Below, one piece after another: positions 21,188-40,614 of a stretch of DNA of 64,000 bases. The DNA is from Xenophilus sp. E41 (lineage in GTDB: Bacteria; Pseudomonadota; Gammaproteobacteria; Burkholderiales; Burkholderiaceae_C), in NCBI RefSeq assembly GCF_003671765.1, contig NZ_QPIB01000001.1, forward strand, positions 1 through 64,000, read 5' to 3'. Position numbers and translations under genes: made by a program. The notes beneath the pieces were generated by a model. That model was not told where the DNA came from. It made no database searches and was given only the letters and a program-made list of their open reading frames with translations. Position 1 is the stretch's first letter. Each line of letters begins with the position of its first letter.

Positions 21188-21361
21188 CCGCCGCACTGTG
21201 CCTGCCCTGGCGCAGATGCACCAGACACAGCGCGCTCATTTGCGGACATGGTGGGGCGGCGGCCGCCGATGTCGCGAAATCGACCGCCTATGTCCGGCGC
21301 CGCCACGCGCAGGGCGCAAGACTTTCATCGACGCGGCCCTTCGGCAGCGACAAGGTGAACG

Positions 21362-23357: not shown

Positions 23358-23371
23358 TGCGAACATGGGCC

Positions 23372-24223: not shown

Positions 24224-24251
24224 GGGCCCGAGCCGGGGTCGCACGAACGCC

Positions 24252-24316
24252 GATTGCTATGCAAACGATAGCTGCCGGCGCCCGCCCCACGGGCGCTGCG
24301 GGCACTTTTTTCTTCA
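24252..24316 (+). repeat. GCTA/TAGC hairpin repeat, copy 5 (probable terminator)
   Basis: This is the best-preserved copy. GCTATGCAAACGATAGC forms a stem, then GCGCCCGCCCCACGGGCGC forms a second perfect hairpin, followed by GGGCACTTTTTTCTT. It starts 29 bases after the hydrolase stop and lies between convergent genes. It looks like a functional Rho-independent terminator. Confidence 0.88.
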
Positions 24317-24325
24317 AACTCCAGG

Positions 24326-26104
24326 TCAACCGAAAGTGAAGGCATAGGCCCGCACCCCGGCGTCGAGAAAGCGTATCTCCACCGTGCGCGCATCGGCCGC
24401 GCCCTGCTGCCGCACGAGCTGGTACAGGCGCTGCGCGTCGACAGTGCCGCGGCCGTCGGCGTCCACGTCTTCGCCATGGTCGGCGCCGGGCGGCTGGCCG
24501 TCGAGCGTGAGGCGGAAGCGCACCGGCCCACGGCCCGGTACCGCGCCCAGCACCAGGTGCGCATCGCGCGCCTGGAAGCGCAGCGCGATGCCCCCGCCGG
24601 GTTGGTCGAGCTGCACGTACTCAGGCGCCACCGTCTAGTCGCCGCGCAGGCCCCAGCGATTCAGCCTCAGCGCATCGACCGTGTAGCTGCGCGAGCGTTC
24701 CCGCAGCACGCCTTCGGGTGACGCGAAGCCGCTGCCCTGCTGGTAGCCCAGGTAGGTCTCGGGCGTGCGCACGCTGCCGCTGTCGGGCGGCAGGCCCACG
24801 CCGCGCGTGTCGACATGCACGGCCTGCACCGCCGCGCCACCGCTCGCCGGCGCGCGGCCCGCTTCCCGCAGCAGCGCCTGGATCGCCGCTTCGGTGCGCG
24901 TCGCACCGCCTTCGCCGAACTGGTGGTGCCGTACGCGGCCCTGCGCGTCGATGAGGTAGAGCGCGGGCCAGTACTGGTTGCGGAAGGCGCGCCAGATGCC
25001 GTACTGGTTGTCCTGCACCACGGGGTAGGCGATCTTCAGCTCGCGCAGCGCGCGCTGCACGTTGGCCGTGTCCTTCTCGAATGCGAACTCCGGCGTGTGC
25101 ACGCCCACCACGACCAGGCCCTGGTCGGCGTACTGCTGCGCCCAGGCGCGCACATGCGGCAGCGTGCGCAGGCAGTTGATGCACGAATAGGTCCAGAAGT
25201 TGACCAGCACCACCTTGCCGCGCAGCGCCTCGGCCGTGAGCGGTGACGTGTTGAGCCACGGGCCGCCACCGCCGAAGCTGGGCTGGATCGGCTCGATGGG
25301 CAGGCCCGAGGGCACGCCCGCGGGGGCCGTTGTCGACACGCGCTGCAGGCCGTTGCCGGTGCCCGCCATGTCGCCCCCGCCCAGCGCGGACCGCAACAGC
25401 CGCTCCTCGAGCTTCGCCGTGCCCGCATCGAGCGACACGCGGGCGAGCAGGCCCGTGTCCAGCCGCGTCGCCACTGCCACCACGCCGCCCAGCATGGCCG
25501 CACCGAGCACGCGGCGCGCGCCCACGCCGGTGCCCAGCCGCGCGCGCCACGCAGCCCAGCGCGCGTCGCCGGCCCGCAGCAGCACCGCCAGCGCCAGCGC
25601 CGCGCCGCCGGCATAGGCCGCGAGCAGCAGCGTGCCGTGCACCGACGGCCCCGCCAGCGCCGCGCCGCTGAGGATCAGTCCCAGGATCGGCCCCGCGCAG
25701 GGAGACCAGACCAGGCCCGTGGCCACGCCGACCAAGAGCGACGCGCCCCAGCCCGTGTCGACCACGCCGCGCGACCGGCGCGCCAGCAGCGCATCGCCCA
25801 CGCGCGCCAACGGTTGCATCAGCCAGGTGGCGAAGCGGGGCCACAGCAGTGCGAGCGCGAACACGGCCAGCGCCACCAGCGCCAGCACACGGCCCGTCTG
25901 GTGCAGGCGCACCGCCCAGGCGCCCGCCACGGCCCCGAGCGAGGCCACGCCGGCGAAGGCGATGGCCATGCCGGCCAGCAGCGGGCCGCTGCCTTGCGCG
26001 AGGGGCCGACCCGTGCGAGCGAACACGAAGGGCAGCACCGGCAGGATGCACGGACTCAGCAGCGTGAGAACGCCGCCGAGGAAGGCAAGGAGGTAGAGCG
26101 TCAT
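24326..26104 (-). pseudogene. DipZ-type cytochrome c biogenesis / thiol-disulfide protein, interrupted by an in-frame amber codon
   Basis: One uninterrupted frame of 593 codons has DipZ architecture. A CcdA-like membrane part comes first (residues 1-210, with redox cysteines 19 in SPCILP and 136 in SPCAGP). A thioredoxin domain with CINC (Cys308 and Cys311) in FWTYSCINCLRT follows. The carbohydrate-binding-like C-terminal domain comes last. TAG at 24635-24637 splits the frame after LNRWGLRGD, and the same frame continues T-VAPEYVQLDQPGGG to 24326. DipZ relatives usually have Trp at the TAG position, so a single TGG-to-TAG change explains it. A GTG lies only one codon past the stop (24629-24631) and could restart the last 101 residues. 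The N-terminal 489 residues keep both redox parts. The start is the ATG at 26104; an upstream extension derives from a repeat. Confidence 0.8.
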
Positions 26105-26169
26105 GTGGGGCTCCGGATGAGTTGGGGTGGCGGGTAGACAGGTCGTTTTCAGTTCGCATCCAAGCCCCG

Positions 26170-26236
26170 ACCGTTCACGCTGAGCCTGTCGAGGCGCGGC
26201 GCAGGGCTTCGGCCCTTCGACAAGCTCAGGACGGGC
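26170..26236. repeat. CCGTTCACGCTGAGCCTGTC inverted repeat, copy A
   Basis: CCGTTCACGCTGAGCCTGTC is followed about 25 bases later by its complement-like arm CCCTTCGACAAGCTCAGGAC, giving a long hairpin. This is a dispersed element widely seen in proteobacterial intergenic regions. It lies between the DipZ gene and the epoxide hydrolase-like gene. A second copy is at 53102-53162. Confidence 0.85.
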
Positions 26237-26276
26237 CAAGCTCGGCCCGAACGCTGGTTGCAGGCGGCGAACTGAT

Positions 26277-27338
26277 TCAAAGCCGCGTCACATCCAGCAC
26301 CGCCTGCGCAAAGGCCTGCGGCGCCTCCTGCGGCAGGTTGTGGCCGATGCCACCCGTGAGGTTGCGGTGCTGGTACCTGCCCGTGAACTTGCCCGCATAG
26401 GCCGCGGGCGCCGGATGCGGCGCGCCGTTGGCGTCGCCTTCCAGCGTGATGGTGGGCAGCGCGATCGCGGGCGCCGCGGCCAGCCGCGCCTCCAGCGCGT
26501 CGAAGCGCGATTCGCCCTCCACCAGGCCGATGCGCCAGCGGTAGTTGTGCGCCACGATGACCACGTGGTCCGGGTTGTCGAAGGCAGCGGCGCTGCGGCG
26601 GAAGGTGGCATCGTCGAACTGCCAGCGCGGCGAGGCCTGCTGCCAGATGAAGCGCGCGAATCCCGCCGGGTCGGCCGCATAGCCGTCGCGCCCGCGGTCC
26701 GTCGCCAGGTACGACTGGTACCACCACGCGAACTCCACGGCCGGCGCCTGCGCCTTGGCATTGGCCTTGGGGTTGCCGATGAGGTAGCCGCTCACCGACA
26801 CCAGCCCCATGAAGCGCTCAGGCCACAGCGCCCCGAGGATGCAGGCCGTACGCGCGCCCCAGTCGCAGCCGCCGAGCACCGCGCGCTCGATGCGCAGCGC
26901 GTCCATCAGCGCCAGGATGTCGTTCGCCACCACGGCCTGCTGCCCGTTGCGCGGCGTGGCCGCCGAAACGAAGCGCGTGCTGCCGTAGCCACGCAGGTAG
27001 GGAACGATCACGCGGTGTCCGGCTGCGGCGAGCAGCGGCGCCACGTCGACGTAGGTGTGGATGTCGTAGGGCCAGCCGTGCAGCAGGATCACCGGCACAC
27101 CATCGGCCGGGCCGAGTTCGGCATAGCCGACGTTCAGGTCGCCGGCCTGGATGTGGCGCAGCGCACCGAAGCCCGAGGCCGCGCCGCTGCGGCCGGCCGT
27201 GGCGTCGGCACCCGCGCCCTGCGCGAAGGTCGGCATCGCGACACCGCCCAGCAGCGCACCCAGGGGCGCGGCGGCGAACGTGGCGGCGGTGGCGCCGAGG
27301 AATCGGCGGCGGGGAACAGCAGGGTTCGTCGGGGTCAT
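26277..27338 (-). CDS. Exported alpha/beta hydrolase, epoxide hydrolase-like
   Basis: The 353-residue protein has a twin-arginine signal (RRRFLGATAATFAAAPLG), so it is probably exported folded. The fold shows the epoxide-hydrolase oxyanion motif HGWP (87-90), the nucleophile elbow GGCDWGA with Asp159 instead of Ser, and the catalytic histidine in GIGHNLPQEAP. An Asp nucleophile with HGWP points to epoxide hydrolases or haloalkane dehalogenases rather than esterases. The start at 27336-27338 has AAGGAC upstream. A longer open frame upstream is unsupported. It diverges from a second exported hydrolase with a 396-base gap. Confidence 0.85.
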   Translation of the reverse strand: MTPTNPAVPRRRFLGATAATFAAAPLGALLGGVAMPTFAQGAGADATAGRSGAASGFGALRHIQAGDLNVGYAELGPADGVPVILLHGWPYDIHTYVDVAPLLAAAGHRVIVPYLRGYGSTRFVSAATPRNGQQAVVANDILALMDALRIERAVLGGCDWGARTACILGALWPERFMGLVSVSGYLIGNPKANAKAQAPAVEFAWWYQSYLATDRGRDGYAADPAGFARFIWQQASPRWQFDDATFRRSAAAFDNPDHVVIVAHNYRWRIGLVEGESRFDALEARLAAAPAIALPTITLEGDANGAPHPAPAAYAGKFTGRYQHRNLTGGIGHNLPQEAPQAFAQAVLDVTRL

Positions 27339-27734
27339 GGTGCGGTCCTTCGTCGGGTTGTTGGAGCTCGCGGCGAAGGCGGTCTTCATCGCGTGGAGCC
27401 AGTGGACCGCGCGGATGTATGCCGCATGTGTCACGGCCCGCTCGAAGTGAACGGCTGTGTATCGCCCGGCCTGCGTATACAGAGCGGTACAAAAGCCCCG
27501 GCGACCACCTCCGCACCGCGAAGCACAGAACGCCTGCAGCACCGCTCCCACGCTCCCAGCCACCGACGAGCAACGCACTTTTATTGCTTCTACTAAACCG
27601 ATTTCGTAATTTTAAAAATGAGATCGACCGACGGGACGACGTCTGATTCGCTTTATGCAACGTATTCGCAACCCTGTTAATCGAAGACCTCCCTACGATT
27701 CAAGCCTTCACCCACCACTTCGAAGGACACCGAA
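27339..27734. other. Intergenic region between two divergent hydrolase genes
   Basis: There is no convincing gene in these 396 bases. The part from about 27570 to 27690 is clearly AT-richer than its surroundings, which suits the promoters of both divergent genes. No repeat or palindrome of note was found. Confidence 0.6.
27584..27612 (+). promoter_or_regulatory. Candidate sigma-70 promoter for the hydrolase gene at 27735
   Basis: TTGCTT (27584-27589) and TAATTT (27607-27612) are 17 bases apart and lie in the AT-rich stretch, about 125 bases before the ATG. The match is fair, but AT-richness alone could produce it. Confidence 0.35.
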
Positions 27735-28514
27735 ATGAACGCCCAGATCCGCAAGCTCATCGTGGCCGCTGCTGCCGCCACCAGCATCGTCGCGCCCGGT
27801 GTCGGCGCCCACGCGCAGCCCGCACCGGCGCGGAACGTCGTGCTGGTGCACGGTGCCTTCGCCGACGGGTCGGGATGGCGCGGCGTTTACGACAAGCTCA
27901 CGGCGCGCGGGTACCGCGTCACGGTGGTGCAGAACCCGCTGACCTCGCTGGCCGACGATGTGGCCGCCACGCAGCGCGCACTCGCACGCCAGGACGGCCC
28001 CACCATCCTCGTGGGGCATTCGTGGGGCGGCACGGTCATCACGGAAGCCGGTGTCGACCCGAAGGTGGTCGGCCTCGTGTACGTGTCGGCGCTGTCGCCC
28101 GACGCCGGCGAAACGACGGCCGAGCAGTACACGGGTTTCTCGGCGCCAGAGTTCGTGATCGACACGCAGGCCGATGGCTACGGTTACGTCAACCTCGCCA
28201 AGTTCAAACCCGGGTTTGCCGCCGACACGAGCGACGCCGATGCGGCCTTCATGCGCGACGCGCAGATCCCCATCAACATGTCCGTCTTCGGCACCAGGCT
28301 CAAGCAGGCCGCATGGCGCACCAAGCCCAGCTGGGCCGTCATCGCGACCGACGACAAGGCCTTCGATGTGCGCATGCTGCACAAGATGGCCAAGCGCATC
28401 GGCGCCGACATCACGGAGGTGAAGGCCAGCCACGCGGTGTTCATGACGCAGCCGAAGGTGGTGGCGGACGTGATCGACCGGGCGGCGCGCGAAGCCGGGA
28501 CCAAGAACCGCTGA
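27735..28514 (+). CDS. Secreted alpha/beta hydrolase (EstC / methyl-esterase-like)
   Basis: The 259-residue product has a Sec signal (LIVAAAAATSIVAPGVGAHA). The compact fold follows with VVLVHGAFADGSGW, the nucleophile elbow LVGHSWGG (Ser96) and the catalytic histidine in VKASHAVFMTQP. This pattern is shared by bacterial EstC-like esterases and plant methyl-salicylate-type esterases. A periplasmic or secreted ester hydrolase is likely, with unknown substrate. GAAGGACAC lies ahead of the ATG. Single gene, divergent from the epoxide hydrolase-like gene. Confidence 0.87.
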   Translation: MNAQIRKLIVAAAAATSIVAPGVGAHAQPAPARNVVLVHGAFADGSGWRGVYDKLTARGYRVTVVQNPLTSLADDVAATQRALARQDGPTILVGHSWGGTVITEAGVDPKVVGLVYVSALSPDAGETTAEQYTGFSAPEFVIDTQADGYGYVNLAKFKPGFAADTSDADAAFMRDAQIPINMSVFGTRLKQAAWRTKPSWAVIATDDKAFDVRMLHKMAKRIGADITEVKASHAVFMTQPKVVADVIDRAAREAGTKNR

Positions 28515-28578
28515 ACAGGTCTTGCAGGCCGGCACCCGCGCGGGACTGCGGAGCGGGCATGCCGCCCCAACCGAGGCG

Positions 28579-29389: not shown

Positions 29390-29825
29390 CAGCGGATCCG
29401 TCCTTCGCGATTGCAGAGGAATGGGGGTCACCGTGCGGGTTGGCGACAGGGCTCATGATAAGCAGAGGCACTGCCTCCTTCGAAGAGGCGGCGACATAGA
29501 CGGCAGGCATAGAGCCGCAACCGCCGGGGGAATGGCCCACGAGCGAGGGCGGGAGTGGTCCATCTGCGGCGGACAGCTAGAGACTGGTTGCTGCCGGTCA
29601 CCCAGAATGCGCGAAAGACGCTAACGCCCCCTGAGCCGACATCGAGCCTACTCCGAAGCGGGTATTCGTGAGATGTGCAGGCTAAGCCGCGACTCAGCAC
29701 CAAGGCCCTGACTCACCCAGAACGCGAACTCATTCGCGCACCGTGAACTCAACAGGGGTGAATCCCGTTGCACTGGCGGACCGCGACGCAAGCAGCTCGT
29801 AGCCAAGCCCCCAGCATTGATGCCA
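29390..29825. other. Gene-free stretch at the left edge of the catabolic island
   Basis: No credible gene is seen in 436 bases on either strand. Short frames here lack ribosome sites and family features. The composition is mixed and lower in GC than the flanking core genes, and it marks the change to the island that starts with the TetR gene. No tRNA, integrase or direct repeat was seen. Confidence 0.5.
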
Positions 29826-30524
29826 TCAGAAACCGCCGGAGTGTCGCTGGAAAGAGGAAGGCTCCGGCCGGCGGAGGGCGCGGCAGAGATAGTCTCTTAG
29901 CTCGGATCTGAGCTCCTCAGCGCGCGAAGCGTCCGCACTGCCATTGGTCAAGATGGACATGCGGTTGTTCGGTCCAACGTCCGTGATCGCCAGCATGACC
30001 GTTCCGGTCATCAAGGTGTAGCGCCACTGCCAGTCCACCCTGCTCAGTTGCTTGTCGGTCTCGCACAGCGCATCGACGAATTCCAAGGCGAAGGGGTTTA
30101 AATGTTGCTCGAAGACGCGGTGCGTCATTTCGCTGGGGTCCAGCCGGTGCTGCAGGATGAATCGAGCAAGGAGGGGCCCGTGAACACCAGGCTCGAAGTA
30201 CGGCTTGATGAAGCAGTCGACAAGATCTTCGAGGCGCAGCGATGTCTTGTGTTGACGTGATGCGTCCATCACCTTCGACAGCTCGGCAAGCCTCAACACC
30301 GTGACGCGCTGGGCAAGGCGCATGAAGATCTCTTCAGCAAGCGCTTCCTTGGACCTGAAGTAGTAGTTGACCAACGCGACGTTCACCCCGGCATCGTTGG
30401 TGATTTCTCGAGTCGATGTCTTGTCGACCCCTTGACGCGCAAAAAGCAGCTCCGCAGCGACAAGAATGCGCTCGCGTGCCTCGCCCGCGCCTTGAGCGGC
30501 TCTCGTGGTGGTTCGGGTCTTCAT
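29826..30524 (-). CDS. TetR-family transcriptional regulator
   Basis: The 232-residue protein has a TetR helix-turn-helix at residues about 15-62 (RERILVAAELLFARQGVDKT, STREITNDAGVNVALVNYYF, RSKEALAEEIF). An all-helical ligand domain follows. It diverges from the CocE/NonD hydrolase operon with 116 bases between starts. That region holds two copies of an ATTAAAT-N3-CGTTTWA palindrome, the likely binding sites. It is therefore the probable repressor of the island operon. The inducer is unknown but is likely a substrate or intermediate of the pathway. Confidence 0.92.
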   Translation of the reverse strand: MKTRTTTRAAQGAGEARERILVAAELLFARQGVDKTSTREITNDAGVNVALVNYYFRSKEALAEEIFMRLAQRVTVLRLAELSKVMDASRQHKTSLRLEDLVDCFIKPYFEPGVHGPLLARFILQHRLDPSEMTHRVFEQHLNPFALEFVDALCETDKQLSRVDWQWRYTLMTGTVMLAITDVGPNNRMSILTNGSADASRAEELRSELRDYLCRALRRPEPSSFQRHSGGF

Positions 30525-30532
30525 GGACCGAT

Positions 30533-30550
30533 ATTAAATCTGCGTTTTAA
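30533..30550. promoter_or_regulatory. Candidate TetR operator 1
   Basis: ATTAAATCTGCGTTTTAA is an imperfect palindrome beginning eight bases upstream of the TetR ATG. It shares ATTAAAT-N3-CGTTT with the second site. It is also flanked by the inverted pair AATCTGC / GCAGATT (30537-30543 and 30554-30560). Confidence 0.6.
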
Positions 30551-30600
30551 ACGGCAGATTAGGGTTTGCACCGCATGCCCGATGGCAGAGCGGCGCCTAC

Positions 30601-30618
30601 ATTAAATGACCGTTTAAT
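30601..30618. promoter_or_regulatory. Candidate TetR operator 2
   Basis: ATTAAATGACCGTTTAAT has perfect inverted arms ATTAAA and TTTAAT with a 6-base centre, 22 bases before the hydrolase ATG. It lies over the probable start region of the island operon. Confidence 0.65.
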
Positions 30619-30640
30619 ACGTGTGATTAGGAGTGTAGCC

Positions 30641-32353
30641 ATGAAGATTGATTGGGACATCGAGATCGCCACCAGTGATGGATCGGTTCTTCGCGCCGAC
30701 ATCTTTCGTCCCGAAGGCAATGGCCCGTTTCCCGTGCTGATGTCGTGCGGCCCCTACGCCAAGGGCCTGCACTTCAGCGAAGGCTTTCCGATGCAGTGGA
30801 AGGGCCTAACCTCCGAGTATCCCGAGGTATTGCGAGGCAGCACAGGTCGATATGCCAACTGGGAGACCGTCGATCCCGAACGCTGGGTGCCCTTCGGCTA
30901 CGTCTGCATTCGCGTGGATTCTCGTGGCGCCGGTCGTTCGCCCGGCTACATCGATTGCTGGTCGACGCGCGAGATCGAGGATTTCAAGGAGTGCATCGAA
31001 TGGGCCGGCACCCAACCCTGGAGCAACGGCAAGGTTGGCCTGGCAGGCGTCTCGTACTACGCCAGCACGCAATGGCAGGTGGCCGCCAAACGTCCCAAGC
31101 ATCTGGCGGCGATCTGCCCCTTCGAGGGCTATACCGACATCTACCGCGATGCCTGCCGGCATGGAGGGGTGCTCAACACCTTCCTGATGAACTGGTACCC
31201 GAACCAGATCGCCAATGTGCAGAACGGCTTGGGCTCGCGCGCCCGCATCAATCCGAATACCGGCGTGTCGATCGCCGGGCCTGACGACCTGAGCGACGAA
31301 GAGTTGCGCGGAAACCGTCGGGATATCCCGGGGAAGTTGCTGTCGGCGGAACTCATCACCGACAGCTATTACACGGAACGCACGCCGGACCTGGCCGCGA
31401 TCGAGGTGCCCGTGCTTTCCTGCGGAAACTGGGGTGGCCACGGTGTCCACCTTCGCGGCAACATCCAGGGCTGGCTGGGTGCGGGGTCCAAGCAGAAGTG
31501 GATGGAACTCCACGGCCGCGAGCACTGGACCGAGTTCTACACCGACTACGGCGTGGCCCTCCAGAAGCGTTTCTTCGATCATTTCCTGAAAGGCGAAGAC
31601 AACGGCTGGGAGAACACCGCGCCCATCAGCATGCTGGTGCGGCACGTCGACGGCTTCGTCCAGAGGTCGGAGCAGGAGTGGCCCCTGGCACGCACCCTCT
31701 GGACCCGCAGCTACCTGGATGCGTCCTCGCTCCAACTGGCCAGCGAACCGCCTGGCGAAGAGGCACAGGTGCGCTTCGACGGACTGGATGGCAAAGCCAG
31801 CTTCAGCACCGCCCCGTTCGAGCAAGAAACGGAAGTGACAGGCCCGGTGGCGGCGACCCTCCACGTGTCGACCACCGCGAAAGACGCCGATCTTTTCCTG
31901 ACGGTCCGCGCTTACGACCCGGCGGGCAAGGAGCACCTCATCGTCGCGGCGTCCGAACTCAACGCGCCGCTGGCGCAGGGCTGGATCCGCGCCTCCCACC
32001 GGAAGCTGGACCCCCGCAATTCGAAGCCATGGCAGCCCGTGCTTGCCCACGACGAATTGCAGTTCCTCGAACCCGGGGCGATCTACGAATTGCAGATCGA
32101 GATCTGGCCGATGTCCTTCGTCTTTCCCAAGGGCTGGCGACTGGTGCTCACCGTCGGCAGCACCGACTTCCAGCACGATCTCCCCGGCCCCTGGCCAATG
32201 ATCTACGGGAAGCCGATGCGCGGCTCCTCCGTCCTCCTGCACGACCACCCCGAGGACCGGACGCCGGAACGCTTCGGCGGGCAGATCACGATCCACACCG
32301 GCGGGGCCTACCCCTCGTTCCTGCTACTGCCGGTCGTTCCCGCAAAGCCATAA
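30641..32353 (+). CDS. CocE/NonD-family hydrolase (X-Pro dipeptidyl-peptidase-like esterase/amidase)
   Basis: The 570-residue protein has an alpha/beta hydrolase N-terminal part (ADIFRPEGNGPFPVLM; RVDSRGAGRSPG; nucleophile Ser138 in LAGVSYYA). The C-terminal galactose-binding-like domain typical of CocE, cephalosporin-acid acylases and NonD follows (FSTAPFEQETEVTGPVAATL). There is no signal peptide, so it is cytoplasmic. CocE itself hydrolyses an aromatic ester, and NonD relatives act on macrolide-like esters. As first gene of a six-gene unit with uptake, cyclase, C-C hydrolase and ligase genes, it probably makes the first cut of an ester or amide substrate. The ATG at 30641 has AGGAG ten bases upstream. 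Confidence 0.88.
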   Translation: MKIDWDIEIATSDGSVLRADIFRPEGNGPFPVLMSCGPYAKGLHFSEGFPMQWKGLTSEYPEVLRGSTGRYANWETVDPERWVPFGYVCIRVDSRGAGRSPGYIDCWSTREIEDFKECIEWAGTQPWSNGKVGLAGVSYYASTQWQVAAKRPKHLAAICPFEGYTDIYRDACRHGGVLNTFLMNWYPNQIANVQNGLGSRARINPNTGVSIAGPDDLSDEELRGNRRDIPGKLLSAELITDSYYTERTPDLAAIEVPVLSCGNWGGHGVHLRGNIQGWLGAGSKQKWMELHGREHWTEFYTDYGVALQKRFFDHFLKGEDNGWENTAPISMLVRHVDGFVQRSEQEWPLARTLWTRSYLDASSLQLASEPPGEEAQVRFDGLDGKASFSTAPFEQETEVTGPVAATLHVSTTAKDADLFLTVRAYDPAGKEHLIVAASELNAPLAQGWIRASHRKLDPRNSKPWQPVLAHDELQFLEPGAIYELQIEIWPMSFVFPKGWRLVLTVGSTDFQHDLPGPWPMIYGKPMRGSSVLLHDHPEDRTPERFGGQITIHTGGAYPSFLLLPVVPAKP

Positions 32354-32363
32354 AGGAGTGTTC

Positions 32364-33347
32364 ATGGCCATCCAACGCCGCGCGATCATCGCCCGTGCTG
32401 CCGCTGCCTGCGCGGTGGCGAGCCTCCGACCCTTGCAGGCCGCATCCGCTCAGCAGGGATGGCCGTCGCACGCCATCAAGTTCGTGAACATGGGGCCGCC
32501 CGGGACCGCGCCGGACACCTACAACCGGATCTATGCGGAGAGGTTGTCCAAGGTACTGAACGTCCCGATGATCGTCGAGAACCGCCCTGGCGTCGCGGGA
32601 AACATCGCGACGGAGTACGTCACCAAGGCACCTGCAGACGGCTACACGTTCCTGTACACAGTCTCGAGCTCTTTCACGGTCAACCCGTGGATCTATTCCA
32701 GGCTGAAGTTCGACCCGGAAAAAGAACTGCGGCCCGTCTCGCCGCTGCTGTCGCAGGGCGCCTTCATCGTCGCCAACAACGACATGCCCTTCAAGACGGT
32801 GAAGGAACTGGTCGACTACGCCACGGCGCATCCGGACAAGCTCGCTTACGGCACCAACGGCGTGGGGAGCTTCCTGCACCTGATCATGGAGCTGTTCAGC
32901 CAGAGCGCGAAGGTGCAGCTGCTCCATGTTCCCTACAAGGGACCACCGCTGATCGACGTGGTGTCGGGCCAGATTCCCCTGTGCGTCGAACCGGCCGCTT
33001 CGGCCATCCCGATGATCAACGCAGGAAAGGTGCGTGCGATTGCCTACAGCGGTGGCCACCGCCACGCCCAGTTCCCCAACGTGCCCACGATCGCGGAGAC
33101 GTATCCCGCCGTGGCTGTGGTGGGCTGGCATGGTGTGTGGGCGCCGGCGGGCGTTCCGACCGAGGTGGTGCAAAAGTTCAACGCAGCGCTCACCCGGATC
33201 ACTCAGACGCCCGAAGTGCAGAAGCAGATCGCCGAGACCGGCAGCGAGCCGATGAGTGCCAGCATCGATGCCATGGCGAGCCTGTTGAGCCAGGAGAAGC
33301 GCACCTGGGGTGAGCTGGTCAAGGCCAAGAAGATTTCCGTGGATTGA
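32364..33347 (+). CDS. Bug-family periplasmic binding protein, divergent first loop
   Basis: The 327-residue product has a signal peptide cut after AASAQ, ENRPGVAGNIATEYV, the PADGYTF turn and VPYKGPPLIDVVSGQ, all Bug features. The first-strand loop is MGPPGTAPDTYNRIYAE, where most Bug proteins have PGG-S/T-D-x-x-AR. This changes the residues that usually hold a ligand carboxylate. It starts 10 bases after the hydrolase gene and ends one base before the cyclase gene. It is thus part of the operon and probably binds the pathway substrate or the acid released from it. Confidence 0.88.
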   Translation: MAIQRRAIIARAAAACAVASLRPLQAASAQQGWPSHAIKFVNMGPPGTAPDTYNRIYAERLSKVLNVPMIVENRPGVAGNIATEYVTKAPADGYTFLYTVSSSFTVNPWIYSRLKFDPEKELRPVSPLLSQGAFIVANNDMPFKTVKELVDYATAHPDKLAYGTNGVGSFLHLIMELFSQSAKVQLLHVPYKGPPLIDVVSGQIPLCVEPAASAIPMINAGKVRAIAYSGGHRHAQFPNVPTIAETYPAVAVVGWHGVWAPAGVPTEVVQKFNAALTRITQTPEVQKQIAETGSEPMSASIDAMASLLSQEKRTWGELVKAKKISVD

Positions 33348-33348
33348 T

Positions 33349-34155
33349 ATGACCCGCCGCTTTGTCGACCTGTCCATCTATCTGGAAAACGGTGTCCTGA
33401 GCGACCCGCCTGCGTTCGCGCCGCACATCGACTACGTGACGCACGAGGACTCACCGGAGCAGATCGCCGCGTTCTTCCCCGGGCTTCGCAAGGGCGATCT
33501 GCCCGATGGCGAAGGCTGGGCGGCGGAAACCGTCCGGCTCTCGACGCACAACGGCACGCATCTCGATGCACCGTATCACTTCCACAGCACGATGAACAAG
33601 GCGCTGGGCGAGCCGCAGCGCTCCACGACCATCGACGAGGTGCCTCTGGAGTGGTGCTTCCAGCCTGGTGTGAAGCTGGACTTTCGGCATTTGCCGGACG
33701 GCCACGTCGTGACCGCGAGGGAGATCGAAGAGGAGCTTGCGCGCATCCAACACACCCTCGCGCCCCTCGAGATCGTGGTGGTCAACACGCGCGCGGGCAC
33801 GAAGTACGGCGACCCGGACTATGTCTCGTCGGGCTGCGGCATCGGCTATGAGGCGACGATGTACCTGCTGGAGCGCGGCGTCCGGCTCACCGGCACCGAT
33901 GCCTGGAGCTGGGACGCGCCTTTCGTGCATACGGCCAAGAAGTACGAGGCCACGCGCGACGCGTCTCTAATCTGGGAAGGTCACAAGGCGGGTCGAGATA
34001 TCGGCTACTGCCACCTCGAGAAGCTTCACAACCTCGAGGCGCTGCCAGCGACCGGGTTCTTCATCAGCTGCTTTCCGCACAAGATCCGCGGCGCGTCGGC
34101 CGGCTGGACGCGCGCGGTTGCCATCTTCGACGCTGCCTTGCAGGCCAGCCATTGA
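33349..34155 (+). CDS. Cyclase-family metal-dependent hydrolase (kynurenine formamidase-like)
   Basis: The 268-residue protein has the family metal motif HNGTHLDAPYHF (His67, His71, Asp73, His77) and later TGTDAWSWDAPF and a His/Glu segment (GYCHLEKLHNLEAL). Members hydrolyse amides such as N-formylkynurenine or act in isatin and polyketide-like ring opening. The start ATG lies one base after the Bug stop, with no room for its own strong ribosome site, so translation is coupled. In this operon an amide or lactone/lactam ring-opening step is the most likely role. Confidence 0.88.
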   Translation: MTRRFVDLSIYLENGVLSDPPAFAPHIDYVTHEDSPEQIAAFFPGLRKGDLPDGEGWAAETVRLSTHNGTHLDAPYHFHSTMNKALGEPQRSTTIDEVPLEWCFQPGVKLDFRHLPDGHVVTAREIEEELARIQHTLAPLEIVVVNTRAGTKYGDPDYVSSGCGIGYEATMYLLERGVRLTGTDAWSWDAPFVHTAKKYEATRDASLIWEGHKAGRDIGYCHLEKLHNLEALPATGFFISCFPHKIRGASAGWTRAVAIFDAALQASH

Positions 34156-34163
34156 CCGCTTCC

Positions 34164-35495
34164 ATGCTCAACTTCACCCATGATCCGGCGACGAAGAGCT
34201 GGGTGCCCGGCGCCCAGTCGCCTGGGTGCGACTTCACGCTTCAGAATCTTCCGCTCGGCGTATTCGTACCCGAAGGTCGCGACCCGCACCCTCGTGGTGG
34301 GATCGCCATCGGGGACCAAGTGATCGACCTGGCTTGTCTGGCGGCGAGCGGGCTGCTGGCTGAACCGGCGGCCGCGGCATGTCGGGTGGCGGCCGACTCG
34401 ACCCTCAACGCTTTCATGGCGATGGGAAAGGCGAGCTGGCAAGCGCTCCGACATGAGGTCTTCAAGCTTCTGTCATCCGGCGCGGATGGGAAAACGCAGG
34501 AGCAGGTGCGCGGCTGCATGTTGCCGCTGAGCCGGGCCACCATGAAGATGCCGGTCGACGTACGCAACTACACCGACTTTTACACATCGCTGCATCATGC
34601 GGTCAACGTGGGCCGAGTGATGGGCCGCGAGAACCCGCTCACCCGCAACTTCCAGTGGCTGCCGATCGCCTACCACGGCCGAGCATCGAGCATTGTGGTG
34701 AGCGGCACCGGATTTCGCCGACCCAACGGCCAGTCCACAGCGGCAGACCGCGCACCTCCGGCGTTTGGCCCCTGCCAGAAGCTCGACTTTGAACTCGAGA
34801 TGGGCTTCTTCGTCGGTCCAGGAAGCACTCTGGGAGAGCCGGTACCGCTCTCGCAGGCGCGAGACCGGATCTTCGGCATGTGCCTGCTGAACGACTGGTC
34901 GGCACGTGACCACCAGTTCTGGGAGATGGACCCGCTCGGCCCTTTTCTCGGCAAGAACTTCTGCACCAGCATATCGCCCTGGATCGTCTCCATGGAGGCG
35001 CTGGAGCCCTATCGGGTTGCCTTCGACCGCCCCGCCGGTGACCCGCAGCCGCTGCCCTATCTGGAGGATGCCGCCGACCGCGCCAGCGGGAGCCTGGACG
35101 TGCAGCTGGAGGTCTCTTTGCAGTCTCGGCGGCATCGTGCGCTAAACGTCCCTGGCGACCGGATCACGGCCACCAGCTTCCGTCACCAATACTGGACCGT
35201 TGCGCAGATGCTGACGCAGCACACCATCGGCGGTTGCGATCTGCGCAGCGGCGACCTGATGGGAACCGGCACGATCTCCGGCCCCACGCCCGACCAAGCG
35301 GGCGCGATGGTGGAACTGAGTCGGGGCGGCGCGCGATCCGTGCCGCTTCCCGGCACCGGCGAGATGCGGACGTTCCTGGAGGATGGCGACAGCGTGACCA
35401 TCAAGGGTTGGTGCGAACGGCCCGGATTCGCGCGCGTGGGTTTTGGTGAGTGCCGTGGCGAGGTCTTGCCGGCACTCGATCTCGGTGTTTCGTGA
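34164..35495 (+). CDS. Fumarylacetoacetase (FAH) family C-C bond hydrolase
   Basis: The 443-residue protein aligns over its length with true fumarylacetoacetases. It has the SH3-like N-terminal part, DFYTSLHHAVNVG with Asp138 (metal) and His145 (catalytic), YHGRASSIVVSGTGFRRPNG, LDFELEMGFFVGPG (Glu210, Glu212) and NDWSARD (Asp244). The next segment reads HQFWEMDPLGPFLGK, where typical enzymes have IQKWEYVPLGPF, so the substrate-contacting Tyr is Met255 here. The canonical enzyme splits fumarylacetoacetate at the end of tyrosine and homogentisate breakdown. No homogentisate dioxygenase or isomerase gene is present here, so another 3,5-dioxo acid may be the substrate. It starts eight bases after the cyclase gene. 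Confidence 0.88.
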   Translation: MLNFTHDPATKSWVPGAQSPGCDFTLQNLPLGVFVPEGRDPHPRGGIAIGDQVIDLACLAASGLLAEPAAAACRVAADSTLNAFMAMGKASWQALRHEVFKLLSSGADGKTQEQVRGCMLPLSRATMKMPVDVRNYTDFYTSLHHAVNVGRVMGRENPLTRNFQWLPIAYHGRASSIVVSGTGFRRPNGQSTAADRAPPAFGPCQKLDFELEMGFFVGPGSTLGEPVPLSQARDRIFGMCLLNDWSARDHQFWEMDPLGPFLGKNFCTSISPWIVSMEALEPYRVAFDRPAGDPQPLPYLEDAADRASGSLDVQLEVSLQSRRHRALNVPGDRITATSFRHQYWTVAQMLTQHTIGGCDLRSGDLMGTGTISGPTPDQAGAMVELSRGGARSVPLPGTGEMRTFLEDGDSVTIKGWCERPGFARVGFGECRGEVLPALDLGVS

Positions 35496-35504
35496 GCTAG
35501 ACCT

Positions 35505-37166
35505 ATGGCATCGATCTTCGACGACGACCTTCCGCAAAACCCTGCTAATCACACGCCACTGACGCCGATCGTATTTCTTGAACGGTCCGCGCAGGTCTAT
35601 CCGCAGCGACTCGCCATTGTCCATGGTCCCGTGCAGCGCACCTGGGCGCAGACCTACGATCGATGCAGGCGACTCGCCAGCGCGCTGCGGCGACGGGGGA
35701 TCGGGCGCAACGACACCGTGGCCGTCATGTTGCCCAACACACCTGCGATGGTCGAGGCGCACTTCTTCGTGCCGATGGCCGGCGGCGTCCTCAACACGCT
35801 GAACACACGGCTCGACGCGGCAAGCATTGCCTTCATGCTCGATCACGGCGAGGCAAAGGCCGTCATCGTCGACCCGGAGTTCGCAACGGTGATGGGCGAA
35901 GCGCTGCGACTGCGCGCCAGCCAGGACCGGCTGCTCGTCATTGACGCGGAGGATCCACTGTTCGAGGGACCTGGCGAGCGCGTCGGCGGCCTGACGTACG
36001 AAGCGCTGCTGTGCGAGGGCGATCCGGCCGATGCGTGGCCGCTGCCGCAGGACGAGTGGGACGCGATAGCCCTCAATTACACGAGCGGAACCACCGGAAA
36101 TCCCAAGGGAGTGGTCTATCACCACCGCGGCGCCGCCGTGAACGCGATCTCCAACGTCCTCGAGTGGGACATGCCCAAGCACCCCGTCTTCCTGTGGACG
36201 CTGCCGATGTTCCATTGCAACGGATGGTGCTTTCCTTGGACCGTGGCCGCGCGGGCCGGCGTCAACGTCTGCATGCGCCGTGTCGAAGCCAGGGCGATCG
36301 TCGATGCGATCGCGCGCCACGGAGTCACCCACTACTGCGGTGCGCCCGTCGTCCACAACCTGCTTGTGAACGCTCCTCAGGATCTGCTGCAGGGACTGCC
36401 GCGCGGCGTTAAGGCCATGGTGGCGGGCGCAGCGCCGCCCGCTTCGATGATCGAAGGCATGGAACGCCTGGGCTTCGACCTGACCCATGTATACGGGCTC
36501 ACCGAGGTTTACGGTCCGGCGACTGTATGTGCCAAGCACGAAAGCTGGGAAGAGGTCGACATCGCCGAACGAGCGATGCTGAACGGTCGGCAAGGGGTGC
36601 GCTACCACCTGCAGCAGGCAGCGACCGTGGTCGACCCGTCGACTATGAAGCCCGTGCCTGCGGACGGGCAGACGATCGGCGAAGTGATGTTCCGAGGAAA
36701 CATCATGATGAAGGGATACCTGAAGAACCGGACGGCCACGCAGGAGGCATTCGCCGGTGGTTGGTTCCACACCGGCGACCTCGCGGTTCAGTGTCCCGAC
36801 GGATACATCAGGATCAGGGACCGAAGCAAAGACGTCATCATCTCCGGCGGCGAGAACATTTCATCCATCGAGGTGGAAGACGTGCTCTATCGGCACCCCG
36901 ATGTCCTGGCGGCCGCAGTGGTTGCCAGACCAGACCAGAAGTGGGGCGAGACGCCCTGCGCGTTCGTTGAAGTCAAACCGGGTGCACGGCCGACGCAGTC
37001 CGACATCGTGGAGCATTGTCGCAAGCACCTAGCTGCATTCAAAGTGCCGCGGACTGTGATCTTTGGCGAATTGCCCAAGACGTCGACCGGCAAGATCCAG
37101 AAATTCGAGCTGCGTTCCAGGGCAGGTTCGGTTGCGGCAATCACCGCGTCGGAGGCGAAATCATGA
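35505..37166 (+). CDS. AMP-forming acyl-CoA synthetase (ligase)
   Basis: The 553-residue enzyme has the adenylate P-loop YTSGTTGNPKG (192-202), LPMFHCNGWCFPW, the A5 motif VYGLTEVYGPAT, GWFHTGDL, the hinge DRSKDVIISGGENISS and the catalytic lysine in PKTSTGKIQK near the C-terminus. All motifs are complete. It most resembles the medium/short-chain and 3-methylmercaptopropionate-type ligases by the HCNGWCFPW segment. It should activate a carboxylic acid released by the upstream hydrolases to its CoA ester. It starts nine bases after the FAH gene. Confidence 0.92.
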   Translation: MASIFDDDLPQNPANHTPLTPIVFLERSAQVYPQRLAIVHGPVQRTWAQTYDRCRRLASALRRRGIGRNDTVAVMLPNTPAMVEAHFFVPMAGGVLNTLNTRLDAASIAFMLDHGEAKAVIVDPEFATVMGEALRLRASQDRLLVIDAEDPLFEGPGERVGGLTYEALLCEGDPADAWPLPQDEWDAIALNYTSGTTGNPKGVVYHHRGAAVNAISNVLEWDMPKHPVFLWTLPMFHCNGWCFPWTVAARAGVNVCMRRVEARAIVDAIARHGVTHYCGAPVVHNLLVNAPQDLLQGLPRGVKAMVAGAAPPASMIEGMERLGFDLTHVYGLTEVYGPATVCAKHESWEEVDIAERAMLNGRQGVRYHLQQAATVVDPSTMKPVPADGQTIGEVMFRGNIMMKGYLKNRTATQEAFAGGWFHTGDLAVQCPDGYIRIRDRSKDVIISGGENISSIEVEDVLYRHPDVLAAAVVARPDQKWGETPCAFVEVKPGARPTQSDIVEHCRKHLAAFKVPRTVIFGELPKTSTGKIQKFELRSRAGSVAAITASEAKS

Positions 37167-37227
37167 AGTACCTTGACCCATCCGCCGGGCGGGCTTGGGC
37201 AATTGGCCGTCAGCTGGCAGCAAGCAC

Positions 37228-38328
37228 ATGACTCCATCGCTGCCCTTCCAAGCGCTTGACACTTCGATGTTCGAGCGTGCCCAGCGTCTGCTCGACGACG
37301 ACTGGCTGAGCAAGGATGTCGATCTGGCGCCGGTCCTTCCGATGGTGTTGGCACGTGGCGTCGGCCAGGACTGGCACAAGGCCGGAACCTTTCGCCATCA
37401 TCTGGTTGGCGTGGCGCGCACGCTTGCCCAATGGCAGCAGCCGCCAGACGTGAGGTTGCTGGGGCTTTTGCACAGCGTGTACGGCAACGCCTTCGTCGAC
37501 CTGGTCAAGTTCGACGCCGGGACCGAGCGAGGCCGATTGCGCGAGCAGGTCGGCGACTCGGCCGAGCACCTGGTCTACCTCTTCTGCACCGCCAGTCGTG
37601 CGCAGTTCACGCAGCGCGTGTTGGATGGCGAGATCGATACGGACGGCGGCGTGACTGTCGAGCGCATCGGCAAGACCCAGGGGACCGTGCGCCTGAGCGC
37701 TTACGAGGTGGCAGCGTTCATCGTTGTCACCATGGCCGACTTCATGGAGCAATGGTTCAGCTGGCAGGACGACATTTTCTCGGGCTTCCCGCAGGTGGTC
37801 GCTCGGCCGCAGGCCGAGCACTGGATGGCATCGCTATGGCCAGGGCCGATGCGACCAAGCGCGCGCGTCGTCTGCCAGGTCTCCCGGCTCGGCGCGGCAT
37901 TGATGCATCCGGCGCTTCGTGACCTATTGCCGCTTCCGCCGGTGTTCGGCGGCTGCAAGCAGATATTGACAGCGGCCGACGACGCAGCGGCCACGTCGCT
38001 TTATTGGTCGGTGATCCAACAGGACCAGCCGCTGGTACAAACCGACGCGGCTGTCGCAGTGCTGGAGCAGGCCGTGCGCCACAACCCCTGGGTCGGGGAA
38101 CCTCAGATGGTGCTCGCGCAACTGTATTTGTCAGGCGGCCGGCGCGATGAAGCGCGCATGGCCGCGGAGAGTGCACTGCAGCTGTTGAGCCAGTGGGGCA
38201 ATGCGTGGGACAAACGCGTGCAATGGGAAGGATGGGTGGCCTGGACGCGCATCTTGCTGCAATCGGCCACCCATGACTCCTGGCCCGAGCGCCTTGACAA
38301 GCTGAACAACCTGGCGCTGCGGGGTTGA
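37228..38328 (+). CDS. DUF6817-like (HD-type) protein with a TPR-like C-terminal tail
   Basis: The product is about 366 residues. The N-terminal part has HKAGTFRHHLVGVARTLAQW and LLGLLHSVYGN, the histidine pattern of the DUF6817 group, a distant HD-like metal fold of unknown function. The C-terminal third looks like helical repeats (AVAVLEQAVRHNPWVGEPQM; QLYLSGGRRDEARMAAESAL), similar to TPR units. The start is uncertain. The ATG at 37228 lacks a good ribosome site, and an in-frame TTG at 37195 is possible. It is the last gene on the island's plus strand, 61 bases after the ligase. The role in the pathway is unknown. Confidence 0.65.
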   Translation: MTPSLPFQALDTSMFERAQRLLDDDWLSKDVDLAPVLPMVLARGVGQDWHKAGTFRHHLVGVARTLAQWQQPPDVRLLGLLHSVYGNAFVDLVKFDAGTERGRLREQVGDSAEHLVYLFCTASRAQFTQRVLDGEIDTDGGVTVERIGKTQGTVRLSAYEVAAFIVVTMADFMEQWFSWQDDIFSGFPQVVARPQAEHWMASLWPGPMRPSARVVCQVSRLGAALMHPALRDLLPLPPVFGGCKQILTAADDAAATSLYWSVIQQDQPLVQTDAAVAVLEQAVRHNPWVGEPQMVLAQLYLSGGRRDEARMAAESALQLLSQWGNAWDKRVQWEGWVAWTRILLQSATHDSWPERLDKLNNLALRG

Positions 38329-38604
38329 CAGCGACGGCCGCGGGCCGGATCAAGCCGCCACCGATAGGTCGACTTTCAATGACTGATTGCGGCCGAGAGT
38401 GGGCGTTCGAGAGGATTTCCCCAACGGCACTTTTCGCTGCAAAGCGGCCTGCTACCCAAACGTCGCGCGGACAGTGCGGGAGCGACTATCTTGGCCGGGC
38501 CAGCTGCACATGCGGACCCAACCGATTTGCTTGGCGCGCGGTGCAACGTCGACAACAGGCGCTTGCTGCCTTCACCCTGCCCGGCCCCGCCCCACCGACG
38601 CGCG
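38329..38604. other. Gene-free gap at the right edge of the island
   Basis: These 276 bases between convergent genes have no supported gene. The segment from TGACTGATTGCGGCCGAGAG to TTTTCGCTGCAAAGCGGCC resembles decayed intergenic sequence seen repeatedly in Burkholderiales, but I cannot name it. No transposon end was found. Confidence 0.4.
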
Positions 38605-40614
38605 TCATGGCACGTAGCGCTCCACCGAAGCGAGCTCGTTGCCGCCGGCTGAATCTCCAGAGATGACCAGCACGCTGCGGTCATCGAGCAGCACCGCCGT
38701 CGCGCGCGACCGCGCGGTCGACATCGGTGCGGCAGCGGTCCAGACGTTGACGTCGGGGTTGTAGATCTCCGCCGTGCCGAGGCCCACCCCACCGGCCACC
38801 AAGACCCGTCCGTCCGCCAGGAGCGTGATGGTGGGCAGGGGGCGTGCGACGCTGCTGAAGATCGTGCTCGTGGTGAAAGTCCTTCCGTCGGGCGAGAACC
38901 GGAGCGCGGTGGTGCTGACGTCCGACATCGCCAGCGCGCCGCCGTCCGCGAGCGGCGTGGAGATGTAGACGTTGCCCGCGGGAACGGCCCCCACCACCGG
39001 TGTCGAGCTTCCGCTGTCGGCCACAGGGAACAGCTCGGCAGAAGTCAACTGCGAGAAGCCGCTTGCGCCGCCCACACCGCCGACCAGCAGCACGGCGTTT
39101 CCGCCGTCCACGAGCTGGGCGCCATGCTGGCCGCGTGGCACCGACATCGGGGTGGCCATGAGCGTCCAGGTGCCGTTCAGCGGGTCATACAACTCGCCTG
39201 TCTGCAGGAAGGTCACGGGCGATCCCGCCCGGTACCCACCGAGCACCAGCAACCTGCCGTCGGGCAGCAGCGTGGCGGAGTGCCGCGTGCGTGCCGTGCT
39301 CATGCTGCCGGTAGCCGACCACGTGTTGGTCGCCGGATCGTAGATCTCTGCGCTCGCCAGCGACGCATTGATCGATCGGTCGCCTCCCACCACCAGCACC
39401 CGGCCATCCTTCAACACGGTGGCCGATGGATCGGAGCGGGCCGCCAGCATCGGCGCGCCGGTTGTCCAGCTGTCGGTGGCGGGGTCGTAGAGATCTGCCT
39501 GATTGGTGTAGCCGCTTGCAGCCGACACGCCGCCGACCACCAGCACCTTGCCGTCAGCGAGCTTCACCGCGGCGGAATAGTGCCGGGCCAGGGGGATGGA
39601 CGCAGCGGCCGTCCAGGTGCCTCTGGCGGTCACGGCGATCCTGAGCTGCGTCTGCACGGAGCCGGCCGCGTTGCTCGCGGTGACGGTGTAGGCGGCCTGC
39701 GACTGGACCGTGGCCGCAGTCCCGGTGATCGCTCCGGTCGTTTGGTTGATGCTCAGGCCGGCAGGCAGGGCTGGCGCGATCGTGAACGACGACGCGGGGC
39801 CCCCCGTCACCTGCGCCACGTTGGGAGTGATGGGCTCCGTGGTGACGTAGAGGGCAGCAAGCGTGGCGTAGCTGATGCTTGCCGGCGCCACGACGGCTGG
39901 CGCCACGCTCAACCGCAGCGTCACGGTGGTCGACCCGGCAGCGTTGGTGCCGGTGACCAGGTAGTCGGCCGCCGCGGCTTCCGCGGTGGGCGTGCCGCTG
40001 ATGACGCCAGTGATTGCGTCGAGCGAAAGTCCCACGGGCAACGCCGGCACGACAGCGTATGCAGTGACCGGGCCGCCGCTGCTGCTGGGCGCATTGGCAA
40101 CAATGGCCTGCCCGACGGTGTAGATGGGGGCGAGATCCCGGTAGCTCAGGCCTGCGGGCGCCGCCGGCGTCCGCCGGACTTCGATGACCACGCGCGCGGT
40201 GGCTGCGCCGCCGGCATTGGTGGCGGTGACCGTGTAGACGGCAGAGGAAGCCAGGGCGGTGGGCGTGCCGCTGATGATGCCGGTGCCAGCGTCGAACAGG
40301 AGCCCTGCAGGAAGCGCGGGTTCAACGGCAAAGCGCTCGGCCGCACCACCGCTGGCACTGGGCGTGTTGGGCACGATGGGCTGGCCGAGCTCGTAGACCG
40401 CCGTTGTCATGGCGTAGCTGAGGCCCGAGGGCGGCTGCACCGCTGGCGTCTCCGGCGCAGCGACACCCGGGCCGAATCCCACGAAGGAGCCGCCGCCGGA
40501 GCCACCGCCCCCGCACGCCGACAGGATCGCGCCCCATAGCAAGATCAGGAAGCAAGCCCGGAAAGGGGCAAGGCGAAGGGCAACTCGACGCGAAAGGGCA
40601 GGCCGAAGATGCAT
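38605..40614 (-). CDS. Kelch-repeat lipoprotein with Ig-like (putative Ig, PIG) domains
   Basis: The 669-residue product has a lipoprotein signal (FLILLWGAILSAC, lipid Cys34) and a Gly/Ser linker. Three Ig-like repeats of about 88 residues follow, each with LSY, a Y..G..I..N segment, PALPAGL and G.ISGTPTA...A.YTVTATNA. About five Kelch motifs come last (for example KVLVVGGVS...YDPATDSW, RVLVVGGDR...YDPATNTW), forming a probable beta-propeller. This combination is common in surface lipoproteins that bind glycans or other proteins. The ATG at 40612-40614 places the signal correctly. A longer upstream frame is unlikely. It lies 273 bases downstream of a two-component system on the same strand. 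Confidence 0.85.
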   Translation of the reverse strand: MHLRPALSRRVALRLAPFRACFLILLWGAILSACGGGGSGGGSFVGFGPGVAAPETPAVQPPSGLSYAMTTAVYELGQPIVPNTPSASGGAAERFAVEPALPAGLLFDAGTGIISGTPTALASSAVYTVTATNAGGAATARVVIEVRRTPAAPAGLSYRDLAPIYTVGQAIVANAPSSSGGPVTAYAVVPALPVGLSLDAITGVISGTPTAEAAAADYLVTGTNAAGSTTVTLRLSVAPAVVAPASISYATLAALYVTTEPITPNVAQVTGGPASSFTIAPALPAGLSINQTTGAITGTAATVQSQAAYTVTASNAAGSVQTQLRIAVTARGTWTAAASIPLARHYSAAVKLADGKVLVVGGVSAASGYTNQADLYDPATDSWTTGAPMLAARSDPSATVLKDGRVLVVGGDRSINASLASAEIYDPATNTWSATGSMSTARTRHSATLLPDGRLLVLGGYRAGSPVTFLQTGELYDPLNGTWTLMATPMSVPRGQHGAQLVDGGNAVLLVGGVGGASGFSQLTSAELFPVADSGSSTPVVGAVPAGNVYISTPLADGGALAMSDVSTTALRFSPDGRTFTTSTIFSSVARPLPTITLLADGRVLVAGGVGLGTAEIYNPDVNVWTAAAPMSTARSRATAVLLDDRSVLVISGDSAGGNELASVERYVP

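Follow-up and report, generated by a model that had tools for sequence, protein, structure and literature searches.

A mobile TetR-controlled operon of Xenophilus sp. E41 that may degrade a small cyclic polyketide-like compound by hydrolysis

A stretch of 64,000 nucleotides (positions 1 to 64,000 of contig NZ_QPIB01000001.1 of Xenophilus sp. E41; hereafter, the window) was analyzed for a cassette of seven genes, comprising a divergent TetR-family regulator gene and genes for a CocE/NonD-type hydrolase, a Bug-type binding protein, a PF04199 cyclase-family hydrolase (the cyclase), a full-length fumarylacetoacetase (FAH), an acyl-CoA ligase and a DUF6817 protein (Table 1). Judging from sequence comparisons, this operon is a real, mobile unit, and its conserved core is the cyclase with an enzyme predicted to cleave 3-oxo or 3,5-dioxo acids. 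The function class of the operon is likely, and on balance we lean towards the view that the TetR-controlled cassette degrades a small cyclic polyketide-like compound by hydrolases, with no oxygenase encoded in the cassette.

In the route proposed, the Bug protein would capture the compound, the CocE-type enzyme would strip an acyl or ester group, and the cyclase, as a metal hydrolase, would open a masked 1,3-dicarbonyl ring to a 3,5-dioxo acid (R-CO-CH2-CO-CH2-COOH). FAH would then cleave this acid hydrolytically at C4-C5, giving acetoacetate and R-COOH, the ligase would convert R-COOH to R-CO-CoA for beta-oxidation, and the substrate or product would release TetR from two operators. In relatives the FAH step would be replaced by a short FAAH, or by a BKACE enzyme with acetyl-CoA. 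Fumarylacetoacetase hydrolyses fumarylacetoacetate, which is a 3,5-dioxo acid if numbered from its acetoacetate end, and so yields acetoacetate plus fumarate; BKACE enzymes act upon 3-oxo acids with acetyl-CoA. Since both FAH and BKACE could accept such a compound, the cyclase product would most simply be a 3,5-dioxo acid. A 4-hydroxy-2-pyrone or a cyclic trione (cyclohexane-1,3,5-trione) is the favoured, albeit unproven, substrate ring, chosen because its hydrolysis without redox chemistry would yield a 3,5-dioxo acid. FAH would leave a free acid and a CoA ligase would therefore be needed, as is present in the window operon. An earlier note on this DNA had suggested uptake, cutting of an ester or amide, ring or amide opening, C-C cleavage of a 3,5-dioxo acid and CoA activation; the scheme is supported as a prediction and may be refined in that ring opening would precede FAH and acetoacetate would be a product.

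The genes, their families and the intergenic gaps of 10, 1, 8, 9 and 61 bases described in that note agreed with the open reading frames and with Pfam and NCBIfam searches. The shift in composition that it reported was also evident, as the G+C content of the seven cassette genes was 59.5-65.5%, while 2-kb windows outside the cassette were mostly 67-74%, with one window of 65% at 57-59 kb. Bordering gene-free stretches are present but modest, at approximately 394 bp on the left (29432-29825) and 276 bp on the right (38329-38604); left of 29432 are small reverse-strand open reading frames. A consensus promoter scan of 29400-38700 yielded no match (1.4 expected), and a tRNA scan of 20000-48000 yielded none.

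Table 1. Features of the cassette, with positions in the window and the evidence for each assignment.
Feature	Position	Strand	Evidence or remark
TetR-family regulator, TetR_N + TetR_C_30	29826..30524	-	Divergent; Pfam 52.5 + 45.7 bits, both above cut-off
Operator copy 1 (putative), TTAAAY-N4-GTTTNA	30534..30549		About 10 bp from TetR start
Operator copy 2 (putative)	30602..30617		68 bp from copy 1; 23 bp upstream of CocE
CocE/NonD-type alpha/beta hydrolase	30641..32353	+	Peptidase_S15 + PepX_C and CocE_NonD
Bug/TctC periplasmic binding protein	32364..33347	+	PF03401, 204 bits
PF04199 cyclase-family hydrolase	33349..34155	+	PF04199, 118.8 bits
Full-length fumarylacetoacetase (FAH), Met at mouse position 244	34164..35495	+	TIGR01266, 520.9 bits (cut-off 375.3)
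AMP-forming acyl-CoA ligase, PRK08162 group	35505..37166	+	NF006020, 944.8 bits (cut-off 677)
DUF6817 + TPR protein, accessory	37228..38328	+	PF20680, 88 bits (cut-off 25), plus TPR match

Conserved synteny had been named beforehand in the earlier note as a test of the unit. Synteny was sampled by a CocE protein scan with one genome per species, from which the best 80 of 221 loci were examined, several of them cut by contig ends. Complete seven-gene copies were found in three other genomes: Xenophilus aerolatus DSM 19424 (L016), Burkholderiales bacterium 8X (L027) and Variovorax paradoxus VAI-C (L189), the last on a 2.48 Mb replicon. DNA homology of the window with the three copies spans 29862-38318, 29875-38321 and 29911-38326, and in no case extends into the compared flanks. 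Because homology stops at the borders amid unrelated flanks, the cassette appears acquired and mobile, in support of the acquisition suggested earlier. A family-wide sample of 299 genomes contained 7 with a CocE relative (E 1e-100 or better), counting the window's own. The same-genus genome whose flanks are nearest to those of the cassette (G300) matches the window over 16057-28533, albeit with breaks, and from 40896 onward, at 74-94% in the main blocks, and its matching contigs lack the 28.5-40.9 kb stretch, including the cassette and the gene immediately to its right (38605-40542, reverse strand), which encodes a Kelch-repeat and putative Ig-domain protein; a clean empty site was not shown in G300, both of whose contigs end near that place.

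The regulator's best NCBIfam model is PsrA, at 63 bits against a cut-off of 300. Two operators had been claimed, and two matches to TTAAAYNNNNGTTTNA were located in the 64 kb window (30534 and 30602), both in the TetR-CocE intergenic region; 100 shuffles gave a mean of 0 matches. As the pattern was derived from the intergenic alignment, the count in the window is partly by construction, and the informative test is its absence elsewhere: a scan of 250 loci yielded seven that match. These comprise two copies in each of L016, L027, L028 and L189, one copy in L017, and two loci (L005 and L147) that are the DNA of the window and of L016 again; L027 has an extra match on the opposite strand at the same place. 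Spacing between copies is 67 bp in L016, L027, L028 and L189, compared to 68 bp in the window, and in the intergenic alignment the two operator blocks are kept while much of the remaining sequence has drifted. A decayed copy was observed in V. boronicumulans PgBe293 (L028, 12709-14163), with TetR, CocE and Bug genes followed by a frameshifted, truncated cyclase; FAH, ligase and DUF6817 genes were not found downstream of the broken cyclase. That the cassette is a chance gathering of catabolic genes with unrelated roles, as relatives of CocE and DUF6817 occurring elsewhere without a cyclase might suggest, is highly improbable given that the window and three other genomes carry it complete, with operators and borders in common, and given the exchange of partners for enzymes of like reaction described below.

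To establish which part of the cassette is more broadly conserved, cyclase neighbourhoods were compared in 40 loci hand-picked from a family cyclase search, containing 43 cyclase genes, with linkage here and below defined as a distance within 4.5 kb. A full-length FAH was near 20 cyclase genes, a short FAAH near 16 and both near one, for a total of 37 of 43. In a second sample of 20 annotated plasmid regions, out of 67 records with a cyclase relative, 15 had such a partner: full-length FAH (4), short FAAH (7) or BKACE (4), the last annotated as '3-keto-5-aminohexanoate cleavage protein'. Cyclase relatives with FAH, short FAAH or BKACE were also present in Alphaproteobacteria and Actinomycetota. 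The window genome has seven genes of PF04199, and its PF01557 matches number 21, of which 20 exceed the cut-off. There, all five cyclases of the window subfamily have a linked PF01557 gene, compared to neither of the other two PF04199 genes. The six-gene unit of the earlier note is thus conserved as a cassette, but the widely conserved core is narrower, namely the cyclase with FAH or its equivalent. Four further cyclase modules of the window genome were observed on contigs C2, C15, C41 and C46 (L096, L097, L099 and L187), with differing importers and partners.

Importers vary among loci of the full-length-FAH type. Based upon Pfam searches of one example per class, with the remainder assigned by similarity, these include TRAP (L151, L152, L154, L157, L162 and L165), NMT1-type ABC (L099, L156, L158, L159, L163, L164, L167, L168, L180 and L183) and MFS importers (L024, L025 and L155) in addition to the Bug protein of the window type. 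Six Cupriavidus contigs share the order cyclase, FAH, CocE; in two of them FAH and CocE are separated by a porin gene or a fragment of one. A gene of the SMP-30/gluconolactonase type was repeatedly observed near a cyclase-FAH or cyclase-BKACE pair (L154, L162, L165, L191 and L230), hinting at a lactone substrate.

Relatives of the cyclase at E 1e-70 or better were found in 60 of the 299 genomes, its own included. The HxGTHxDxP motif, which we take to be the metal site of the PF04199 family, is retained, with H67, G69, H71, D73, P75 and H77 invariant in 12 aligned sequences. The cyclase belongs to the same superfamily as isatin hydrolase and kynurenine formamidase, and an alternative is that it serves as an arylformamidase or an isatin hydrolase whose substrate is a formanilide, isatin or lactam, with FAH acting on a later product. 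Consistent with such an amide-type activity, the only solved sequence relatives at E < 1e-5 were isatin hydrolases (E 6e-6), and Foldseek matched the cyclase model, a poor one (mean pLDDT, the predicted local distance difference score, of 55 from 12 sequences), to isatin hydrolase and kynurenine formamidase. The match to the arylformamidase KynB model TIGR03035 was weak, however, at 29.1 bits against a cut-off of 223, and the arylformamidase assignment was rejected on this score. Genomic partners also differ: no tryptophan or anthranilate gene was present among family hits and annotations, although no search was aimed at such genes, and the product of an arylformamidase needs no FAH or BKACE, yet these or a short FAAH accompany most cyclases in both samples. 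Amide hydrolysis is accordingly considered unlikely.

Returning to the opening of a dicarbonyl ring, the exchange of its cleavage partner is most apparent in a Burkholderiales metagenome-assembled genome (L017, 12723-14454), where TetR, CocE, Bug and cyclase genes are followed 4 bp past the cyclase by a BKACE gene (345.8 bits) that replaces FAH. The TetR-CocE-Bug-cyclase segment is 81% identical to the window in DNA over 4.2 kb, and its cyclase is nested within the window's five-row clade (SH-aLRT, approximate likelihood-ratio support, of 96). BKACE is followed by an apparent sigma-factor frame, identified by eye, and the contig ends 0.4 kb past BKACE. An assembly error is conceivable because this is a metagenome contig, yet the junction falls between genes that are spaced as in an operon. 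BKACE would release its product in the form of a CoA ester; L017 has no ligase between BKACE and the contig end, this being one case. Pseudonocardia kujensis (L042) has the order cyclase-CocE-BKACE-TetR. Partner type requires seven changes on a cyclase tree of 82 rows, with 13 partner-less rows omitted. This quick tree, which has many weak forks, was built from 112 hits, from which duplicate sequences and loci whose flanks were short had been removed; cyclase hits aligned across a stop were dropped at an earlier stage, including L192 and L193 (one BKACE-linked and one FAAH-linked), and the row L168 at 4690 is scored as without partner where a FAAH is cut by the locus end. The Aminobacter copy has a gene for an acetoacetate-CoA ligase in its vicinity, and the Rhodococcus copy has genes for CoA-transferases, both consistent with acetoacetate as a predicted product.

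The relationship of the operon FAH to tyrosine catabolism was examined using the residue numbering of mouse FAH. The window FAH passes the TIGR01266 equivalog cut-off (521 bits against 375) and thus belongs to the fumarylacetoacetase family. Residues D126, H133, E199, E201, D233, R237, Q240 and K253 were invariant in every cyclase-linked and hmgA-linked FAH compared, and T350 and E364 were nearly so; we presume these residues to be catalytic, as in mouse FAH. Shared family and shared catalytic residues would suit a second tyrosine/homogentisate-type pathway in which the cassette FAH is an ordinary fumarylacetoacetase. However, position 244 separates the two groups. Tyr244 is present in mouse FAH and in 22 of 22 hmgA-linked FAHs (23 before duplicate removal) but in none of 41 cyclase-linked FAHs (63 before duplicate removal), which have Met (34), Ala (4) or Ser (3); with the FAH of the cyclase cluster on contig C2 of the same genome (L004), which has Ser, the count is 0 of 42. 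R142 is present in 22 of 22 hmgA-linked compared to 18 of 41 cyclase-linked FAHs. Neither residue 142 nor 244 is named in the available text of a paper on FAH (PMC6721957). The window FAH has Met and falls within a single clade of 34 Met-type, cyclase-linked FAHs (SH-aLRT 97; one partial row left out), while non-Met cyclase-linked FAHs lie near or inside the homogentisate FAHs on the best tree. Furthermore, a single hmgA was located in this genome, on contig C44, clustered with a separate FAH gene, the operon FAH has a cyclase rather than hmgA as its partner, and no dioxygenase or isomerase family hit was obtained among the seven proteins. A role in tyrosine breakdown, against which the earlier note had argued, is thus very unlikely, and a duplicate of that pathway was rejected on the basis of the separate hmgA cluster and the Tyr244 comparison.

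Among the remaining proteins, the CocE-type protein scores 249.6 bits against TIGR00976 (cut-off 66), has a full-length PDB relative in 3ib3 (E 1.4e-76) and retains the nucleophilic Ser of GVSY when aligned with cocaine esterase. On contig C10 of the same genome (L098, 2599-11584), two CocE genes were observed with Bug proteins and an FAA_hydrolase match and no cyclase hit; CocE therefore also pairs with FAAH alone. An alphaproteobacterial metagenome-assembled genome (L061, 2727-11710) contains five tandem CocE-type hydrolase genes. The best PDB relatives of the Bug protein are a terephthalate-binding protein and Bug27. DUF6817 was present in 6 of 60 relatives, counting the window's own, and among five other loci fetched only X. 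aerolatus has a cyclase with DUF6817 (four of five are not beside a cyclase), such that its tie to the pathway is unproven. In L144-L146, DUF6817 is near genes for NlpA lipoproteins and ABC transporters, and the 14 kb covered there yielded no hit to the cyclase. Assignment of DUF6817 as an HD-type hydrolase was discarded, the HD_4 match being sub-threshold (E 0.096), and a fold search with a poor model (mean pLDDT 52, 3 sequences) gave a best E of 0.069.

Several observations weigh against the proposed route or its extent. The substrate class is drawn from known activities of FAH and BKACE and not from the window cyclase. At the corresponding position of the alignment no Asp of the CocE catalytic triad is apparent; the alignment with cocaine esterase is broken there, and 3ib3 likewise has no aligned Asp. 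Only 13 of the best 80 of 221 CocE loci, several of which are cut by contig ends, hold a cyclase of at least 45% identity, one of them broken, and CocE is not bound to the cyclase pathway because Variovorax CocE genes 69-71% identical (L021-L023) occur without a cyclase. Most FAH-type copies lack both CocE and ligase, 6 of the 43 cyclase genes have neither FAH nor short FAAH in linkage, and 5 of the 20 plasmid regions have no FAH, short FAAH or BKACE partner. With regard to the FAH tree, the approximately unbiased (AU) test does not reject one common origin for the FAHs linked to a cyclase (p 0.255, or p 0.363 with a reduced set), and loss of Tyr244 may be one event, with two independent pairs only; for these reasons its repeated loss is put forward as a suggestion. 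Repeated recruitment of FAH to the cyclase, for which the best tree has three label changes and starred branches force two, was not relied on given the same AU value.

One close parallel among known systems is the anaerobic phloroglucinol pathway of Clostridium scatologenes (PGR, DPGC, TfD and TAL), in which, according to the main text of PMC10470551, the cyclase-family DPGC opens dihydrophloroglucinol and TAL cleaves triacetate. As in the proposed route, the ring, there a cyclic 1,3-dione, is opened by an enzyme of a 'cyclase' family and the 3,5-dioxo acid is then split, there by a beta-keto acid cleavage enzyme; BKACE is also the partner of certain relatives of the window cyclase. DPGC is assumed to belong to PF04199, as that main text gives no Pfam name. 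The cassette differs in that it lacks phloroglucinol reductase, the triacetate-forming dehydrogenase and BKACE, has FAH instead, and brings an importer, a CocE-type hydrolase and a ligase of its own.

The cyclases of a second clade (18 rows, SH-aLRT 99) are mostly accompanied by short FAAH, short-chain dehydrogenase/reductase and FrsA-like hydrolase genes. Eleven fetched loci (L169, L170, L172, L175, L176, L178, L179, L181, L184, L185 and L186; Pfam on L169) carry a flavin monooxygenase, a glyoxalase-type dioxygenase and a cupin, with a Rieske protein called in 10 of 11; ten fall in the 18-row clade, L186 having been dropped before the tree. These loci, with a short FAAH and a cyclase 71-76% identical to that of the window, resemble the ifc isoflavone cluster of Variovorax and the fde naringenin operon of Herbaspirillum as described in PMC11069340; the fde operon is treated in PMC11303751. 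In Variovorax V35, a double cupin mutant of ifc accumulates 2-hydroxy-5-(4-hydroxyphenyl)-4H-pyran-4-one according to the text of PMC11069340, the main text of which does not contain the word 'cyclase', and cyclase and FAAH are candidates for open ifc steps, X2 to X3 having no assigned gene there. This sister clade, with its flavin monooxygenase, Rieske ferredoxin, extradiol-type glyoxalase, cupin and short FAAH, and the pyranone intermediate raise the alternative that the window cyclase works downstream of oxygenases on a flavonoid-like fragment supplied by other loci, not on an imported ring. This seems rather doubtful, as the window cyclase is in another clade and the cassette supplies an importer itself; Pfam and NCBIfam searches of its seven proteins gave no hit to an oxygenase family, nor to the flavin monooxygenase, extradiol dioxygenase or cupin families, and the TRAP, ABC and MFS variants also join an importer to cyclase and FAH.

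Among the titles and abstract openings listed, with subscription journals and supplements outside the scope, no published description of the module was recognized. The wider proposal, which is put forward tentatively, is of a redox-free, oxygenase-free hydrolase route for phloroglucinol-type or 4-hydroxy-2-pyrone polyketide rings, in which PF04199 ring opening to a 3,5-dioxo acid would be finished by an altered FAH, a short FAAH or BKACE, the module would be traded with interchangeable importers, and FAH residue 244 would mark the switch from tyrosine catabolism. Annotations as 'fahA' with gene ontology terms for tyrosine catabolism would in such cases probably conceal another role, and one residue and one neighbour may discriminate between the two. 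The analysis yields a short list of testable substrates; the cassette is a candidate for retro-Claisen biocatalysis, and the module could be a sink for pyrones or acylphloroglucinols made by plants, fungi and bacteria.

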